The position numbers and the translations under genes are program-made. 64,000 nucleotides of DNA. It comes from Sergeia podlipaevii (taxonomy: Eukaryota > Euglenozoa > Kinetoplastea > Trypanosomatida > Trypanosomatidae). The DNA lies in the NCBI GenBank assembly GCA_030849805.1, contig JASANZ010002257.1, positions 54,512-118,511 of the forward strand, in the 5' to 3' direction. This document shows positions 13,947-64,000 of this stretch, piece after piece. The notes beneath the pieces were generated by a model. That model did not search any database. It saw nothing but the letters and a program-made list of their open reading frames with translations, and was not told the origin of the DNA. Every line of letters starts with the position of its first letter. Position 1 is the stretch's first letter.

Positions 13947-14498
13947 ATGGGGCAATGGCTGGCTTCTGCGTTTAGCTCGCTTATGGGAAAGCAGGAGGTG
14001 CGCATCGTGATGGTGGGCCTGGATGGTGCAGGCAAGACGACTATCTTGTACAAACTGAAGCTTGGCGAAGTTGTTTCAAGTGTCCCTACTATTGGCTTTA
14101 ATATTGAATTTGTGGAGTACAAAAACCTCAAGTTTAACATTTGGGATGTGGGGGGCCAGGAAACCCTCCGCCCTCTATGGCACTACTACTATCAAAATTG
14201 CAACGCCATCATTTTCGTAGTGGACAGCAACGACCAGCAGCGTGTTAGTGTAGCGAAGGCCGAGCTGGACAAGATGCTTGTTGAGGATGACCTCCGCAAT
14301 GCTGTGCTCCTTGTGTTTGCGAACAAGCAGGATTTGCCCAATGCGATGAGCACGACCGAGGTGACTGAGAAGCTCGGTCTGCACTCCCTGCGCCAACGCA
14401 GCTGGTATATTCAAGGCTGCTGCGCAACGACTGCACAAGGTCTGTATGAGGGTCTGGACTGGCTATCCAATAATGTGAGCAAGTCCATGCGGGGATGA
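13947..14498 (+). CDS. ARF-family small GTPase, divergent copy
   Basis: 183 residues. Gly2 (MGQWLASAF) fits N-myristoylation. G1 is GLDGAGKTT (Gly where ARF1 has Ala, as in ARL1), switch 1 [10 protein letters not shown]3 WDVGGQE, G4 NKQD, G5 CCATTAQ. Switch-region residues differ from ARF1 ([11 protein letters not shown] instead of the RHYFQN type), so effectors may differ. The last about 75 residues are almost the same as in the ARF1 gene 2 kb downstream, with 4 mismatches over 203 bp, whereas the N-terminal half differs in many residues. It would act on Golgi or endosomal membranes in coat or tether recruitment. It may be an ARF paralogue or an ARL1-type protein; the shared 3' half makes assignment by similarity unreliable. 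Confidence 0.85.
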
Positions 14499-15468: not shown

Positions 15469-16489
<1,021 letters not shown>

Positions 16490-58255: not shown

Positions 58256-58663
58256 ATGTTTTCTCGTACTACATTGCGCCTTTTGGGTAGTCCCACCTAC
58301 GGCAACTGGCCATGGCCCACTAAGTTGCCTCTTAAGAAGGATTGGTATCACCGCCTTAGCCGTCGAAAGAGCATTGCCGATGAGACCCGCCAATACTTTG
58401 TCGTTGGTGACATTCTTATCTTATTTGTCCTTGCGTTTTCAGCGTATCGTGTTTTTCTCTTATCATATCGTACCGATAGTTATCAGACACACTTGTTCAA
58501 GCTCAATGCCTACCCTCCCGCTATTATCGCGAACGAGTTTGACTTTAAAAACCCAGATGCAAACCGCAAGGTTGAGCGCAAGGATTTGGACTCATACAGA
58601 GAAGAGGTGGTGACATGCAAGGCACTCGCGCGTCCACTTGAAAGTATCATCTTCAAGTACTAA
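58256..58663 (+). CDS. Small membrane protein, probably mitochondrial
   Basis: 135 residues from the ATG at 58256. The frame is open from 58091, but those codons cross two pure T-tracts with a splice acceptor between them, so they are not coding. The N-terminus (MFSRTTLRLLGSPTYGNW) is basic with few acidic residues, as in mitochondrial presequences. One hydrophobic helix at about 50-70 (VGDILILFVLAFSAYRVFLL) follows, then a charged C-terminus. Length and layout resemble accessory subunits of inner-membrane complexes (cytochrome oxidase or ATP synthase), but I recognise no family. Location and class are inference. Confidence 0.68.
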   Translation: MFSRTTLRLLGSPTYGNWPWPTKLPLKKDWYHRLSRRKSIADETRQYFVVGDILILFVLAFSAYRVFLLSYRTDSYQTHLFKLNAYPPAIIANEFDFKNPDANRKVERKDLDSYREEVVTCKALARPLESIIFKY

Positions 58664-59640
58664 ATAAATGAGAGAAGTTTAGCAGTAGTAATATAAGAAC
58701 ACATTTAGGGGCACAATCTTTTCTTGTGGTGTTTTTGTGGGGTTCACTAATGCACCAAGACATGTGATTTGTTCTTATTACATCTTCACGGTCTTTTTAT
58801 CTCCATTTTTGAAATTATTACTATGACTTTAGTGACGTTTTGCAAAATACTTTAGGGGGTTATATTGTGCGTGTGTGTATGTAATATTGTATTACCAAAA
58901 CACAATTAGTACGAATCTGGGACTTTGGATTACTGAAACAAGAAAACAGCAACAAAAAAAAACTACGTCCTGGTCGTTGTAGCACACTTGAAGAGCTACT
59001 GAATAGCTCCTGAATTACACGCGAAGTGCCACTTATATTGGTGCCTCTTTGCTTTGCACTATCATTGTTTCTCCTTCTCATTTTGTTTATTTATATTTTT
59101 AGTTTCTTCTTGTTTTCATTTCTGCTTTTTTTTTTTGCATCCACCATATAGTTGTACCATTCTCCTTTCAGTTCTCTTACACTTACCAAGTTAAAACAAA
59201 ATACAAACCTAATCCAGCGCGTTTTCTACTTGTATTGATGCCGCTAGGTTGATAATACTGTGTCTCATACTTTTTTTTGGCAGTGTTTCTTTTTATCCCA
59301 TTTCCTGTATTACTTTGTGGAGACAGCGTACAGCAGAGTGCTTAGGATCGACATTGACGTATTGCGGCTCTCCCAGAGCTCCGTTGCTGCTTGGACACTG
59401 ACTATAATATTTCATGCAATAGCGCAGCCTGGTACCTGAGTACCCTTTCTCAATTTCCTTTTTTTCTGTTTTCCATTCGTGTAGCCAGCTCGCCCCCTTG
59501 CTCTTTTGTTTTCCTTGTTCAGGGATTTGTATCTATATGTAGCGCGTGATCCAAAACAAACAAAGGAATAGAGCTCATAGCATCGTTCCTTTTTGCTTTA
59601 TGCTGCCGCCAACCCCCGTTTACTCCCCAGGTCTCAGTTC
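58664..59640. other. Spacer at the compositional boundary
   Basis: No gene seen. A-run 58951-58960, T-run 59127-59137, T-rich 59270-59290 and 59457-59470. AG sites near 59630 precede the ATG at 59641. The sequence is still AT-rich, and from about 59600 it turns visibly GC-rich. Confidence 0.6.
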
Positions 59641-61262
59641 ATGAAAGCCACGAGCGTGCTTGTCCTGCGTCTGGCGGTGCTGTCTGTCCACGTTGGGGCA
59701 GCAGACCCCGGGGGCGAGAGGAGCGTGGAGGAGGCTGCTGTGGAGGCGTACACGATTGGGATCTCGTTCTCTGCGAAGATGCAGAGTGCGACTGACAGCG
59801 TGTTACTGTCGAGCTCCCAGAGCTGCGAGGAGGCGTTGTGCACCTTCAGGGTCCCCTTTGCCGCACTGAACAGCAACACCACTCTTCTGCGCAGTGGTTC
59901 CGCGACTGTGGTGCACGTGTGTCACGCTGTGGGGCAGGCAAGCATGCAGCAGTACAATCTCGACGCAGCGACCCTATCGCCCAAGGCTGCCTCCAAGAAC
60001 ACCATGACGATCTTCCAGCTGAGCGACAACGTACCAATCGGGACGCAGGCGCAGTTTTACAAGAGTGACACATATAACTATGGCCCTGTTGGCCGCACAA
60101 TCACGCTAGCTTCGAATCGCCAGATTAGTGTGACAGCCCCAGAGACTGAAGTGATGTATGTGTGCGCCAAGACTGCTGGATCGGTGGATGAGTGGGAGAT
60201 GCTCACACCTGTTCCTGTGATTGATCCCTTCACAACTTCGCCCGCTACAGGCTTCCGATACGGGCTGAGAGAGACCAGCGCGAGCACCCCGATGGCAAAC
60301 CTCCCTTACGCCACCGACGCGACGTGCGCAGTGCCAGTCGGCGAGTACACAAAGTCTAGTGCAGCGAGCGTCGCCAGCACGCTGGGGCTGAGCGTCGTCG
60401 TGCCACGAGGCACCTACGCCGTGTGCGCTCAGTTGGCCAGAAAACTTGATCTTGGCCTCCTGCCGTCGCACACGAAGTTCACTGTGTCCGAGTACGGACT
60501 GACTGTTGAGCCCTTCATGTACGCGAACACGTCGACCCACTTTGGCTTTACGCTTGACGCCGTGTAGCGAGGCAACAATTTTGAGGCCGCCTTGTTCAGC
60601 GGTGAACGCTGCACCGGGGACGTGATTGCTGACTACAGCTCCTCTAAAGAGTGGGTGGCCGCGGCGGCAGGCATGTACTATCCGTGTGTGCGCTAGGCCG
60701 GCGTCAGCGCTTCCACTATCACTGCCTCCACCACTCCCATTGAGGTAATTGACCGCCCAGTGATTGATGTTGTGAAGGAGCTTCCAAACGACAAGGGGGA
60801 CCGCAGCGTGCGTGTGACGGTGAAGCTTGCATATTCACGGACAGATTTGGCTGCGATCGTTGGCCTGTTCAAGGACAAGAGCTGCCAGTCGTCTGTGGCG
60901 CAGGGAATTGCTCGCGGCGCCCCTCCTATTGTGTTTGCTGTCCCCGCTAACAGCCCCGACGAGGTCGTGGTGTGTGTGTCTGTGCCATTTGACCCCGCCA
61001 CTGTGCACCCCGGTGGCGGTGCGGGGGGCAGTACTGCACAAACATTGTACCCAATAATGGTGATGGTACTGACAGCGCTTGGCTTTCCTGCCCTAGCCAG
61101 GGGCCCAGCGGTCTCTCTAAGAGTGCACACGATGCCACTATCGCTTCCTGTACCATCGTCGGCGGACTTCTTCACTTATTTGGTTTGGTTGTGCTTCTCT
61201 TCTGTTGCTGGCGCAGACAGTGTCTTCGGACGTATGTGAGGGAGCATGCGGAGCGGCAGTGA
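59641..61262 (+). pseudogene. Broken surface-protein gene with cysteine-rich modules
   Basis: The ATG at 59641 opens with a signal peptide (MKATSVLVLRLAVLSVHVGA, then ADPGG). The ectodomain holds about five modules of 60-75 residues, each ending in a hydrophobic-x-V-C motif (VVHVCHAVG, VMYVCAKTA, TYAVCAQLA, MYYPCVR, VVVCVSV) with other cysteines inside. In the same frame there are TAG stops at 60565-60567 and 60694-60696, and the coding signal continues beyond both. Near 61030-61041 the signal moves to another frame, which gives a hydrophobic anchor (TIVGGLLHLFGLVVLLFCCW) with a basic tail to a TGA at 61260. Signal peptide plus C-terminal anchor indicate a type I membrane protein. Other genes here end with TAG normally, so readthrough is unlikely. 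I do not recognise the family. Confidence 0.72.
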
Positions 61263-61722
61263 CGAGCTGAGGGGGCTGCAAGGGCTCAGCGGCGCGAAGA
61301 GACTGCCATACATGAAGAGCAGCAAAGTGTGCTTACCTCATATATTGAGGAACATGACGCCTTGGCTGCGGGACCCCCTGGCGGCCGCCGCTCTGGCTGC
61401 ACAGAAGAGGGACGCTGCTTTAGCCGAATGTTACCGCCACGATGGTGATAACGTCTTGTCTGCCAGAGAAGCTGCCCACAGAGGTGCCAATGGTTCCGTT
61501 AAGAAAGGTTAGGGTGGCCACGGAAGAGGCGCTCGCGCAGGTGCTACGATCAGCGGGGAAGGGGCAATTATCGTGGAAGGGACAATGCCAGAGAGCACAA
61601 TTGCGGAGAGAAGCCTGCTTTTCGAGAGAAGGACTGCAATTGAGAGGTGTGAACAGCATTCAAGGAGTGCTTCTTTCTGTCTTTATAGCCATTTGTTTTA
61701 TTCACCAGGCAGTGGTACTGTC
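61263..61722 (+). pseudogene. Decayed tail and unassigned GC-rich remnant
   Basis: After the TGA at 61260-61262 the same frame continues as a charged stretch (AQRREETAIHEEQQSVLTS, then IEEHDALAAG). From about 61380 a second frame takes over with DAALAECYRHDGDNVLSAR and, past a TAG at 61510-61512, a Glu/Arg-rich region to about 61680. This reads like a long acidic cytoplasmic tail broken by stops and shifts, continuing the surface-protein pseudogene. It could also be unrelated degraded coding DNA. The last 30 bases before the retroelement 5' signature show no feature. Confidence 0.4.
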
Positions 61723-61800
61723 CCCTGATGATACCGGCCACCTCTTTGTGGTATCAGGGACTAGTACCCCGTGTTGGGGGAAGCCAGGAGCCTGCAAATG
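61723..61800 (+). ncRNA. Pr77-like segment, possible HDV-like ribozyme
   Basis: CCCTGAT at 61723-61729 is exactly complementary to ATCAGGG at 61753-61759. Between them CCAC (61738-61741) pairs with GTGG (61748-61751). After the second arm comes ACTAGTAC, then CCCC (61767-61770) pairing with GGGG (61776-61779), then GAAGC. This order of P1, P3, P1' and P4 is that of HDV-like ribozymes. The segment agrees with my memory of the Pr77 hallmark of T. cruzi L1Tc (CCGGCCACCT, then CAGGG followed by CTAGTAC). P2 pairing is imperfect by eye, so activity is uncertain. In L1Tc this segment is also an internal promoter. The ribozyme would cut just before 61723. Confidence 0.6.
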
Positions 61801-61888
61801 TACCTCGCGTACGTTTGCGGGGTCGTGACTTCGGCATACAAGCCCTGGGGTAAATCCTTATCTGAGAGACCTGGGACACACAGTACGC

Positions 61889-62580
61889 TTGCAACGCCCC
61901 ACAGCTGCCCGCGCCGGCTGGCAGCGCCGTCACTTACACAATGCGCCTTGTGTAAAAACCTTTTTACACCCGTGCAGCTTCTGCAAACGGCCCTACACCT
62001 CCACAGCCGACCTTGCCTTCCATATGCGCACTAAGCACCCCGAGGTGAGACAGTACACGGTTGCTGCGAAGAAAGACGTGCCTGTTACTGCTCAGAACTT
62101 TTCCACTAGACTCCTCTGCCCTCAATGCAGCAAGACATTTGCAAATGATATCTCCCTCGCATTACACTTAGAGAGGTACCACAATGATGCTCAGTACAGG
62201 GTAAAGAGAGACCCAATGGTCCCGACACACGAGGTGTGTGTGGAAACTTCGAGTCACTTCCTCATCTGCCCAGCTCTGGCAACCATCCGAAACAAGTACA
62301 AACTACAGGAGATAAAGCGAGACTACTCATCAACAGCAAGGAGCTTGCCATGTACTTGGCCGAAGTCTTCAAACTACCTGCTCCGGCTCTCATCGACTCC
62401 CCAGAGAACAATGAGGAGGCCGTCGCTGTCTCCGCTCCCGAGCAGACTGTATCCCCTCCCCTCCTCGCTTCGGCTTTGCACACAAGGATGGATGAAAAGG
62501 GTGAGGTGAAGCCCAGAAAGCGATATCGATCCACATCGAGCATCCGATCTAGCCTGAGCCCCGCACCGCCCTCCGACTGA
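61889..62580 (+). pseudogene. Retroelement C2H2 zinc-finger ORF remnant, frameshifted
   Basis: One frame (61889-62509, no ATG at its start) encodes two C2H2 fingers of C-x2-C-x12-H-x4-H form: CSFCKRPYTSTADLAFHMRT plus final KH (61973-62038) and CPQCSKTFANDISLALHLER plus final YH (62117-62182). They are followed by ETSSHFLICPALATIRNKY (about 62246-62302), the type of motif at the C-termini of non-LTR polyproteins. Near 62290-62330 the coding signal passes to another frame (LAMYLAEVFKLPAPALID, then a Ser/Arg-rich end at 62580). L1Tc carries two C-terminal C2H2 fingers with nucleic-acid chaperone activity, so the origin is plausibly an L1Tc/ingi-like element. It cannot encode a working protein as it stands. 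Confidence 0.65.
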
Positions 62581-62690
62581 GGGGCCAGTCTCCAGGTCTT
62601 CGCGCATATGGAGTTCTAGGCGATTGCTTGTAAGGAGGAATTTGGAGTGGTGGCTGGCGCGCCAGAGCAGCCCTGAAATAGGTGTTTACG

Positions 62691-62705
62691 AAGAAAAAAA
62701 AGAAG
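62691..62705 (+). other. A-rich tract, possible retroelement 3' end
   Basis: AAGAAAAAAAAGAAG closes the GC-rich segment; sequence after it soon becomes T-rich spacer. It is consistent with the poly(A) end of a non-LTR element, but short. Confidence 0.45.
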
Positions 62706-63749
62706 ATCGCTTGCTGGGATGTGCTTGATGGAGCTTCGTTTAGGGTGCACCATTATGGTAAAGAGAGTTGGCTGTGCTCTTACGGCGACAATGCAATATA
62801 ACTGGTGCTCACGTTATCTCGCTGCGTTTTTTTTTTTATAAGGCACACTTTCTTTATATATACAATTTCTATTTCTTATTCTTTTGAACTCTTTCTCCAT
62901 TCTAATTTCAAAGAGTTACCAGTTGTGCCGACAGGTACTTGCTTGTATTAACCCGCATATCTACAGATCTATTTGCTTGTACTGAGCGTACCCGTTTTTT
63001 TTTGTAAAATGCTCCAGAGGTAGAGAAGTATTTAGTAATCTTTTTTGCTCCAATTTTTTTTTAACTGCAGTTTTGTTATAGGATTTTGCTATTTTTGTGA
63101 CAGTAATATTGTTTTTGCTGTAAAGATGAGGGGGTTTTCTTATGTTGCTTGGTGTTTTTCCCTTTTTTCATTTTGAGCACAGATATACTGTGACAGTTTT
63201 CTTGCTTCATTCATAGTTGGCACGTACTAGCTAGCTGTAGTGAGCTGCTACGTATGTTATTCGACGTTGCGTTGTGGATTTCACTACTTTGCAGCTTTCT
63301 TCTTTGTTTCTTTTTTCATTGTATCAAGTATAAATACGCTGTGATCCCATAGCAAATGTTAATGTCAAGCTTCTTACTGAGACTCATTACAACTGTGAAT
63401 GTTGGAAGTGCGGTACGGAACTTTCCATGCAGTAAGAATAAAGAGGTTGCTCTAGTCCTTCTACTCGGTGGTGATGGCAACATATTATCGAATCGACCAT
63501 CATCCAGGGTCACTTGAGACACTAGCTGTCTGTTAAACTTGTATACTACTCTACTTTTGTCATATCTTTTTTCTTACTTGTACTGCGTGGCAATGCTATA
63601 CCTTCCTTATCTCTCTTGCAAATATTTTTTTTGATAGTTAAACACATTTTGTCAGCGTCTACACAGCGGACTTTCATCTGTGCACAGCGTGGCGTTTTTC
63701 AGTGTCAATTCTCTGTCACATCAGAACCTTTTGACCTGCAATCGCACTC
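62706..63749. other. 1 kb spacer before the partial gene
   Basis: T-run 62827-62839, T-rich stretches 62994-63004 and 63054-63063, and pyrimidine-rich sequence 63297-63318 and 63567-63580. A less T-rich part at about 63350-63540 has no convincing frame on either strand and could be an old remnant or a UTR. The tract near 63625-63637 with downstream AG sites could serve the last gene. Confidence 0.55.
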
Positions 63750-64000
63750 ATGACCAGTAAATGGGAAGTTAAGCGCAGGTTGACCAAACGCATGAAGAGG
63801 GCTTTGTTCACTGCCGTGTGTTTGTTCACGTTACTTCAGGTCATGCTGTTATGGTGGCTTTTCTTCTCCAGCGTACCACAACCCTCACAGCCCTCACTGC
63901 TCGGTGAGGAACAGGAGGTATACCTGCGCCGCCCGGATGGCAAGGGCGGCGAGGTGCGTGTGATGGCAGTTGTTGTCAGCACAGACATCACCGATGAGCT
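63750..64000 (+). CDS. Type II membrane protein, N-terminal part only
   Basis: An ATG at 63750 opens a frame that stays open for 83 codons to the window edge, so the gene is cut. The first 17 residues are strongly basic (KWEVKRRLTKRMKR). A hydrophobic helix follows at about 18-40 (ALFTAVCLFTLLQVMLLWWL plus FFSS), then a Pro/Ser stem (PQPSQPS) and the start of a folded part (VYLRRPDGKGGEVRVMAVVV). This is the layout of Golgi type II enzymes such as glycosyltransferases, large families of which exist in trypanosomes. No catalytic motif is in view, so that is a guess. Confidence 0.65.
   Translation, partial: MTSKWEVKRRLTKRMKRALFTAVCLFTLLQVMLLWWLFFSSVPQPSQPSLLGEEQEVYLRRPDGKGGEVRVMAVVVSTDITDE

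Follow-up and report, generated by a model that had tools for sequence, protein, structure and literature searches.

A probable decayed paralogue of a giant, tandemly modular membrane protein family in Sergeia podlipaevii

The attachment of trypanosomatids to insect tissue is described as only partly understood (PMC13416946, PMC11322530). KIAP1 of Leishmania (LmxM.01.0010) is reported to be a type I transmembrane adhesion protein with a signal peptide and an ectodomain that holds DUF2946 and C-type-lectin-like regions (PMC11322530). Here we describe a broken gene at positions 59641..61262 of a window, the whole stretch of DNA that was analysed, which comprises 64,000 nucleotides of Sergeia podlipaevii (GenBank assembly GCA_030849805.1, contig JASANZ010002257.1, positions 54,512 to 118,511 of the forward strand). 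Its family recalls KIAP1 in the apparent plan of a type I membrane protein with a signal peptide, and the adhesion role reported for KIAP1 belongs to the same likeness; the protein is not KIAP1 in its reported form, since no Pfam match to DUF2946 or to a C-type lectin was found in the members scanned, a difference drawn from the description of KIAP1 and not from a comparison of sequences (PMC11322530). The gene also resembles giant proteins of Leishmania, Porcisia and Leptomonas, whose modules 1-5 align in order with it and which have a full-length counterpart in this genome. The Leishmania-type giant has about 18 modules, whereas the window gene has five, is broken and carries a short tail in another frame. 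Our explanation, to which we give a probability of about 0.75, is that the window gene was once a paralogue in a trypanosomatid family of type I membrane proteins built from sandwich modules and has decayed, and that it was spread together with a repeat after its death.

A search of the genome (23.4 Mb in 576 contigs) with piece 1 of the gene, the 308 residues before its first stop, found six matching places, its own locus included, and the other five matched with E values from 1.6e-180 to 8.4e-11. Two relatives are intact. The short form (C574) has an open frame of 837 codons without inner stops (836 residues from the first ATG, of which the last 828 served as query) and has 57% identity with the window piece; a clear transmembrane segment was observed at 517-535 of the 828, followed by a tail of about 290 residues. 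The giant (C315) has a frame of 2420 codons, also without inner stops (2416 residues from the first ATG), with a hydrophobic N-terminal stretch and a single transmembrane segment at 1804-1822. The remaining relatives are damaged. The C358 copy is 92% identical with one TAG, the C405 copy is 92% identical with one TAG of its own and runs off its contig, the C292 copy retains the part with modules 4-5 and has lost most of the gene, and the C246 copy is broken, 39% identical and interrupted by two TGA stops. Directly after this last relative (L010 5260-6200) lies a Cys-rich frame of CxxC type with a hydrophobic end, also frameshifted, which is perhaps a surface gene, either fused to it or lying beside it.

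The giant was searched against proteins outside this genome with residues 1-1900 as query, where the 7987 candidates scored were those sharing most words with it. Among the matches listed, at least nine relatives (P0001-P0009) from Leishmania, Porcisia and Leptomonas were found, all at E < 1e-280, with 35-39% identity over 67-99% of the query and lengths of 1975-3352 residues. The original prediction had spoken in terms of trypanosome families, a setting that does not hold for these relatives as all of them belong to those three genera. NMT and mitochondrial uL4 have their best PDB matches in entries that we take to be trypanosomatid; for uL4, those that we take to be from Leishmania scored slightly higher (870 bits) than one that we take to be from T. 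brucei (852 bits). GAPDH did not discriminate, its first hits being cytosolic-type and bacterial entries, and two spliced-leader patterns gave no match with up to 3 mismatches allowed and thus place nothing. Eight of the nine are named hypothetical or membrane-associated proteins, some of them uncharacterised, while P0007 (L. major) is labelled as a ubiquitin-conjugating enzyme; we take that label as an error because over residues 1-1800 it does not differ from a second family entry. The window gene itself reaches this family directly. Piece 1 is 27% identical over 250 columns to residues 94-335 of an L. infantum protein (E 6e-16) and the short form matches the same protein with 27% over 437 columns (E 4e-30). 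In a multiple alignment the three window pieces, entered as separate rows, fell on modules 1-5 of the L. infantum entry in order and with matching Cys positions. The gene corresponds to the first ~510 residues of the giant, and the ordered alignment therefore identifies it as a short paralogue of the giant's N-terminal part.

The short form was observed only in this genome. Residues 1-560, taken within the whole protein, gave no match at E <= 0.1 among the 7994 scored candidates sharing most 5-residue words, and the first 560 residues alone gave none at E <= 10 among 7996 scored candidates, and short forms may well exist elsewhere. A sequence search of the PDB found nothing at E <= 10 for the short form, and the best match for the giant was radixin (E 1.8), which lies in the tail. 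The original prediction knew of no family with this module, and no known one emerged here: of the three window pieces, the two that were scanned had no Pfam family at E <= 1, and neither the short form nor the giant, P0004 or P0005 had one above cut-off, so that the Pfam surface families of trypanosomatids (VSG, trans-sialidase, gp63, amastin) did not match in the members scanned. A search of plasmid DNA gave no match, and no description of the giant family was recognised among the best-ranked results of a literature search. The proposal that intact paralogues would make this a candidate new surface family is thus borne out as to a real, multi-copy family with intact members that have transmembrane segments, and has to be qualified as to novelty, since its relatives are already deposited, mostly as hypothetical or membrane-associated proteins.

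Hydropathy was scanned in eight proteins (the short form, the giant and six of the nine database relatives). A transmembrane segment follows the modules in seven of them, P0001 being the exception, and an N-terminal hydrophobic stretch above cut-off was also found in seven, the exception being the short form, whose start appears hydrophobic by eye. Three of the eight have an additional weaker hydrophobic stretch within the modules. The tail of the giant contains stretches that are conserved with Leishmania. The Leishmania members appear as mosaics of one another: P0005 (L. infantum) and P0006 (L. major), compared in steps of 200 residues, share 32-42% identity over 1-1000 and 89-98% over 1001-2400. 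P0006 and P0007, both of L. major, do not differ at all over 1-1800, after which their identity drops to 24-28%, and the tails are unlike. Such mosaics may have arisen by genuine exchange among paralogues or may be products of a collapsed assembly. P0001 (3352 residues) appears by eye to contain an internal duplication. In the genome studied here, the DNA of the intact short form (L008 2999-3631) shows 81% identity with the pseudogene over approximately modules 2-4 and 66% in the 3' part, and this uneven identity suggests gene conversion.

The layout of the window gene and of the block around it is as follows.

59126..61722, + strand: gene with its flanks, a piece of a duplicated block (blastn, DNA search)
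59641..59703, + strand: hydrophobic, signal-peptide-like N-terminal stretch (hydropathy, translation only)
59746..59958, + strand: module 1, closed by the Cys at 59920, reduced in length against the intact relative (borders by eye, alignment)
59965..60219, + strand: module 2, closed by the Cys at 60163, without the opening Cys of the relatives (alignment)
60220..60486, + strand: module 3, Cys residues 229 and 262 (alignment, profile comparison)
60487..60747, + strand: module 4, Cys residues 324 and 349, both TAG stops inside (translation, alignment)
60565..60567, + strand: first in-frame TAG, absent from the C358 and C292 copies (translation, copy comparison)
60694..60696, + strand: second in-frame TAG, common to the C358 and C292 copies; C405 stops short of this position (translation, copy comparison)
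60748..61032, + strand: module 5, Cys residues 415 and 445 (alignment)
61149..61205, + strand: anchor-like hydrophobic stretch in another frame, followed by a short basic tail (hydropathy)
61723..63749, + strand: dispersed repeat, zinc-finger reading frame inside at 61889-62509 (genome DNA search, Pfam)
63750..64000, + strand: beginning of a multicopy gene that runs off contig and window (83 aligned residues, 76% of them identical in a 506-residue frame of C358)

The frame starting at 59641 opens with a signal-peptide-like N-terminus (residues 6-20, mean hydropathy 2.06 in a window of 15 residues), in agreement with the signal peptide proposed originally as far as hydropathy can tell. The closing Cys residues are 94, 175, 262, 349 and 445 (nucleotides 59920, 60163, 60424, 60685 and 60973). 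Five modules had been predicted, each of 60-75 residues and closing on a hydrophobic-x-V-C motif; their number stands, whereas the spacing of the closing Cys is 81-96 residues, and the motif ends in V-C in four of the five modules and in P-C in the fourth. An opening as well as a closing Cys is present in modules 3, 4 and 5; module 2 lacks the opening one and module 1 is shortened. The two TAG stops interrupt the frame as had been noticed, and likeness to the coding sequence continues beyond them, where module 5 is 46% identical to the intact relative. The frame finally ends in a stop at 61237-61239. A strong hydrophobic stretch of 19 residues (mean 2.39, about 61149-61205), which corresponds to the anchor predicted in a shifted frame, lies in a frame other than that of the modules and is closed by a stop at 61260-61262; the module frame has its own weaker hydrophobic stretch (mean 1.78, about 61042-61098). 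The stop-free length of 308 compares with a median of 124 and a maximum of 332 in 2000 base shuffles. As this stretch is GC-rich, open-frame length alone is weak evidence and it is the homology that marks a gene remnant.

In the giants the modules are recognized by their Cys pairs. The first 1850 residues of six giants were aligned and 47 columns were found in which five or all six have Cys, mostly the opening and closing pairs; the first Cys follows a pattern like hydrophobic-x-S-x-x-x-C and the second lies in hydrophobic-hydrophobic-C. About 18 modules were counted by eye in the giant. The self-similarity of the five modules was examined with profiles of 11-12 rows (hhalign, '-glob 0') against 100 column-shuffled and 20 reversed controls. 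Four of the ten pairs (2-3, 2-4, 2-5 and 3-4, scores 17.1-20.9) exceeded all shuffled (maximum 10.3) and reversed (maximum 7.0) controls. Local hhalign alignments of the same pairs, run without controls, gave probabilities of 57, 24, 58 and 12%, the last (3-4) over 11 columns only, and the Cys of 2-3, 2-4 and 2-5 were in register. A profile of eleven late modules from the six giants also found module 3 of the window with 11.4 bits, a score surpassed by one of 2000 shuffles of the short-form ectodomain; the same profile had no match in the giant's own first 500 residues, and a self-comparison of the whole giant by hhalign returned no rows. These comparisons suggest that the modules are far diverged and that all five likely share a common descent.

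The original prediction had also proposed modelling a module. Modules 2-4 of a Leishmania member were predicted by AlphaFold as all beta, with the order of strands around the Cys alike in modules 2 and 3 (pLDDT about 81 and about 65). The structural neighbours of the modelled modules are mostly beta sandwiches with middling Z, Ig-like domains among them. No sequence similarity was found between the modules and the Ig-like, FN3 or alpha-2-macroglobulin sandwiches. A model of window piece 1 (308 residues) reached a mean pLDDT of 42.5 and was discarded.

Several of these results weigh against a single repeated sandwich domain. Six of the ten module pairs, all four with module 1 among them, remained within the controls, the hhalign probabilities of the four winning pairs were 4.6-12.5%, the model is less secure for module 3, and the Z values may reflect a common arrangement only, as the neighbour rows include enzyme domains and retromer Vps26. 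The self-similarity that had been predicted is consequently seen in part of the comparisons and not in the rest. On these grounds the modules might not be one repeated domain at all, with Cys-ending motifs that recur by chance or convergence. We consider this quite improbable in view of the four pairs that lie above every control, of the Cys pairs that recur along the giant and of the strand order shared by modules 2 and 3 in the model.

Another doubt concerns whether the gene is dead. It could be functional through stop readthrough and frameshifting, for which one may cite the coding likeness that persists past both stops, including the 46% identity of module 5. Twenty of the window's 40 open reading frames (ORFs) were picked as likely genes, and their stops are TAG in nine, TGA in six and TAA in five; the ORF of NMT, recognised by its PDB matches, ends in TAG. 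TAG is therefore an ordinary stop here, recoding would have to pass three separate lesions, and two intact relatives exist without such lesions, which together make this reading highly improbable. A less remote alternative, still unlikely in our view, is that the copies are not wholly dead: C358 would make a secreted, anchorless protein of four modules and the window copy would be a recently killed version of it. C358 indeed has no stop between its start and the shared TAG, which lies just past the closing Cys of module 4, and C292 has the same stop. The ratio of nonsynonymous to synonymous substitution rates (dN/dS) between the window copy and C358 is 0.72 over 462 codons, with 0.60 before the shared stop and 2.34 after it, and piece 1 compared with C405 gives 0.49. 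However, the difference before and after the stop is not significant (Fisher p 0.15-0.31, with 11 substitutions after the stop), the low dN/dS may partly predate the death of the copies, and C405 has another inner stop. The remaining comparisons gave 1.08 (piece 2) and 1.10 (piece 3) with C292, and 0.56, 0.29 and 0.42 (pieces 1, 2 and 3) with the intact C574. We therefore return to decay as the explanation: the window copy is most likely a pseudogene, as had been predicted, and it cannot make one protein that joins the modules to the strong anchor.

The presence of the second TAG in both C358 and C292 indicates that it probably predates the parting of the copies. The block around the gene is common to C358 (93%), C405 (95%, from 59129 to the contig end) and C292 (91% from 60535, with only short matches upstream of that point). 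Its left edge at 59126 appears by eye to coincide with a polypyrimidine tract and an AG, and the homology with C358 runs from there through the gene into the repeat starting at 61723. A search with 61700-63900, in which 40 of 53 candidates were scored, found at least 70 rows for the repeat across this genome, a total that counts the window itself and several rows from some contigs, and at least 11 of the 70 listed rows start exactly at 61723. The reading frame of the repeat encodes two C2H2 fingers. Because the second TAG is common to two other copies, an already dead gene appears to have been copied together with the repeat. We interpret this spread as segmental copying of a cassette rich in repeats, and retroposition of a co-transcript is a possible route.

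The first bases of the repeat look like what we take to be the Pr77 start of ingi/L1Tc elements. They pair as an HDV-like P1; the fold is no better than that of shuffles (z -0.26), and no ribozyme match was found by Rfam over 58600-64000. A match to EBER1 scored 22 bits, below the gathering score of 50, and was taken as chance. In the portions of the two reports seen, Pr77 is described without its letters (PMC4035085, PMC12278014). The contigs of C499, C478 and C292 end within or just after a copy of the repeat. The multicopy gene that follows the repeat encodes a membrane protein some 506 residues long, which by eye looks like a glycosyltransferase and has no Pfam match; further copies lie at L009 710-2245 (minus strand) and L010 7905-9422, and in C246 the gene is also located downstream of the broken relative. 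Elsewhere in the window, two neighbouring genes for ARF-like small GTPases (13947-14498 and 15953-16489) have C-terminal parts that appear nearly identical by eye, as in gene conversion.

In our explanation the intact members of the family start with a signal-peptide-like stretch, after which come modules in series, predicted to be beta sandwiches of the Ig-like kind, then a single transmembrane helix and a tail inside the cell. Each module comprises approximately 80-95 residues, mostly with an opening and a closing Cys, which we infer to form a disulphide within the module, and the proteins would be located at the cell surface. Two sizes occur in this genome, the giant of about 18 modules and the 836-residue short form matching its first five modules, and the dead window copy would have spread with the adjoining dispersed repeat. 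A signal-peptide-like start, many modules, one transmembrane helix and conserved stretches in the tail fit an adhesin or receptor, possibly a rod-like one with its tail linked to the cell interior. Somewhat short of an even chance is what we allow a broader reading, in which the Leishmania side of the trypanosomatids has giant surface proteins made of tandem beta sandwiches, an undescribed family that evolves by block swapping, and in which a five-module short form with another tail arose here and dead copies of it spread.

The dead copy in the window has thus pointed to a living family. A membrane protein of about 18 modules, present in this species and in human-infective Leishmania and without a Pfam family in the members scanned, is a candidate for a role in adhesion or attachment. 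Block swapping between its paralogues, if it is not an assembly artefact, would be a route to surface diversity.
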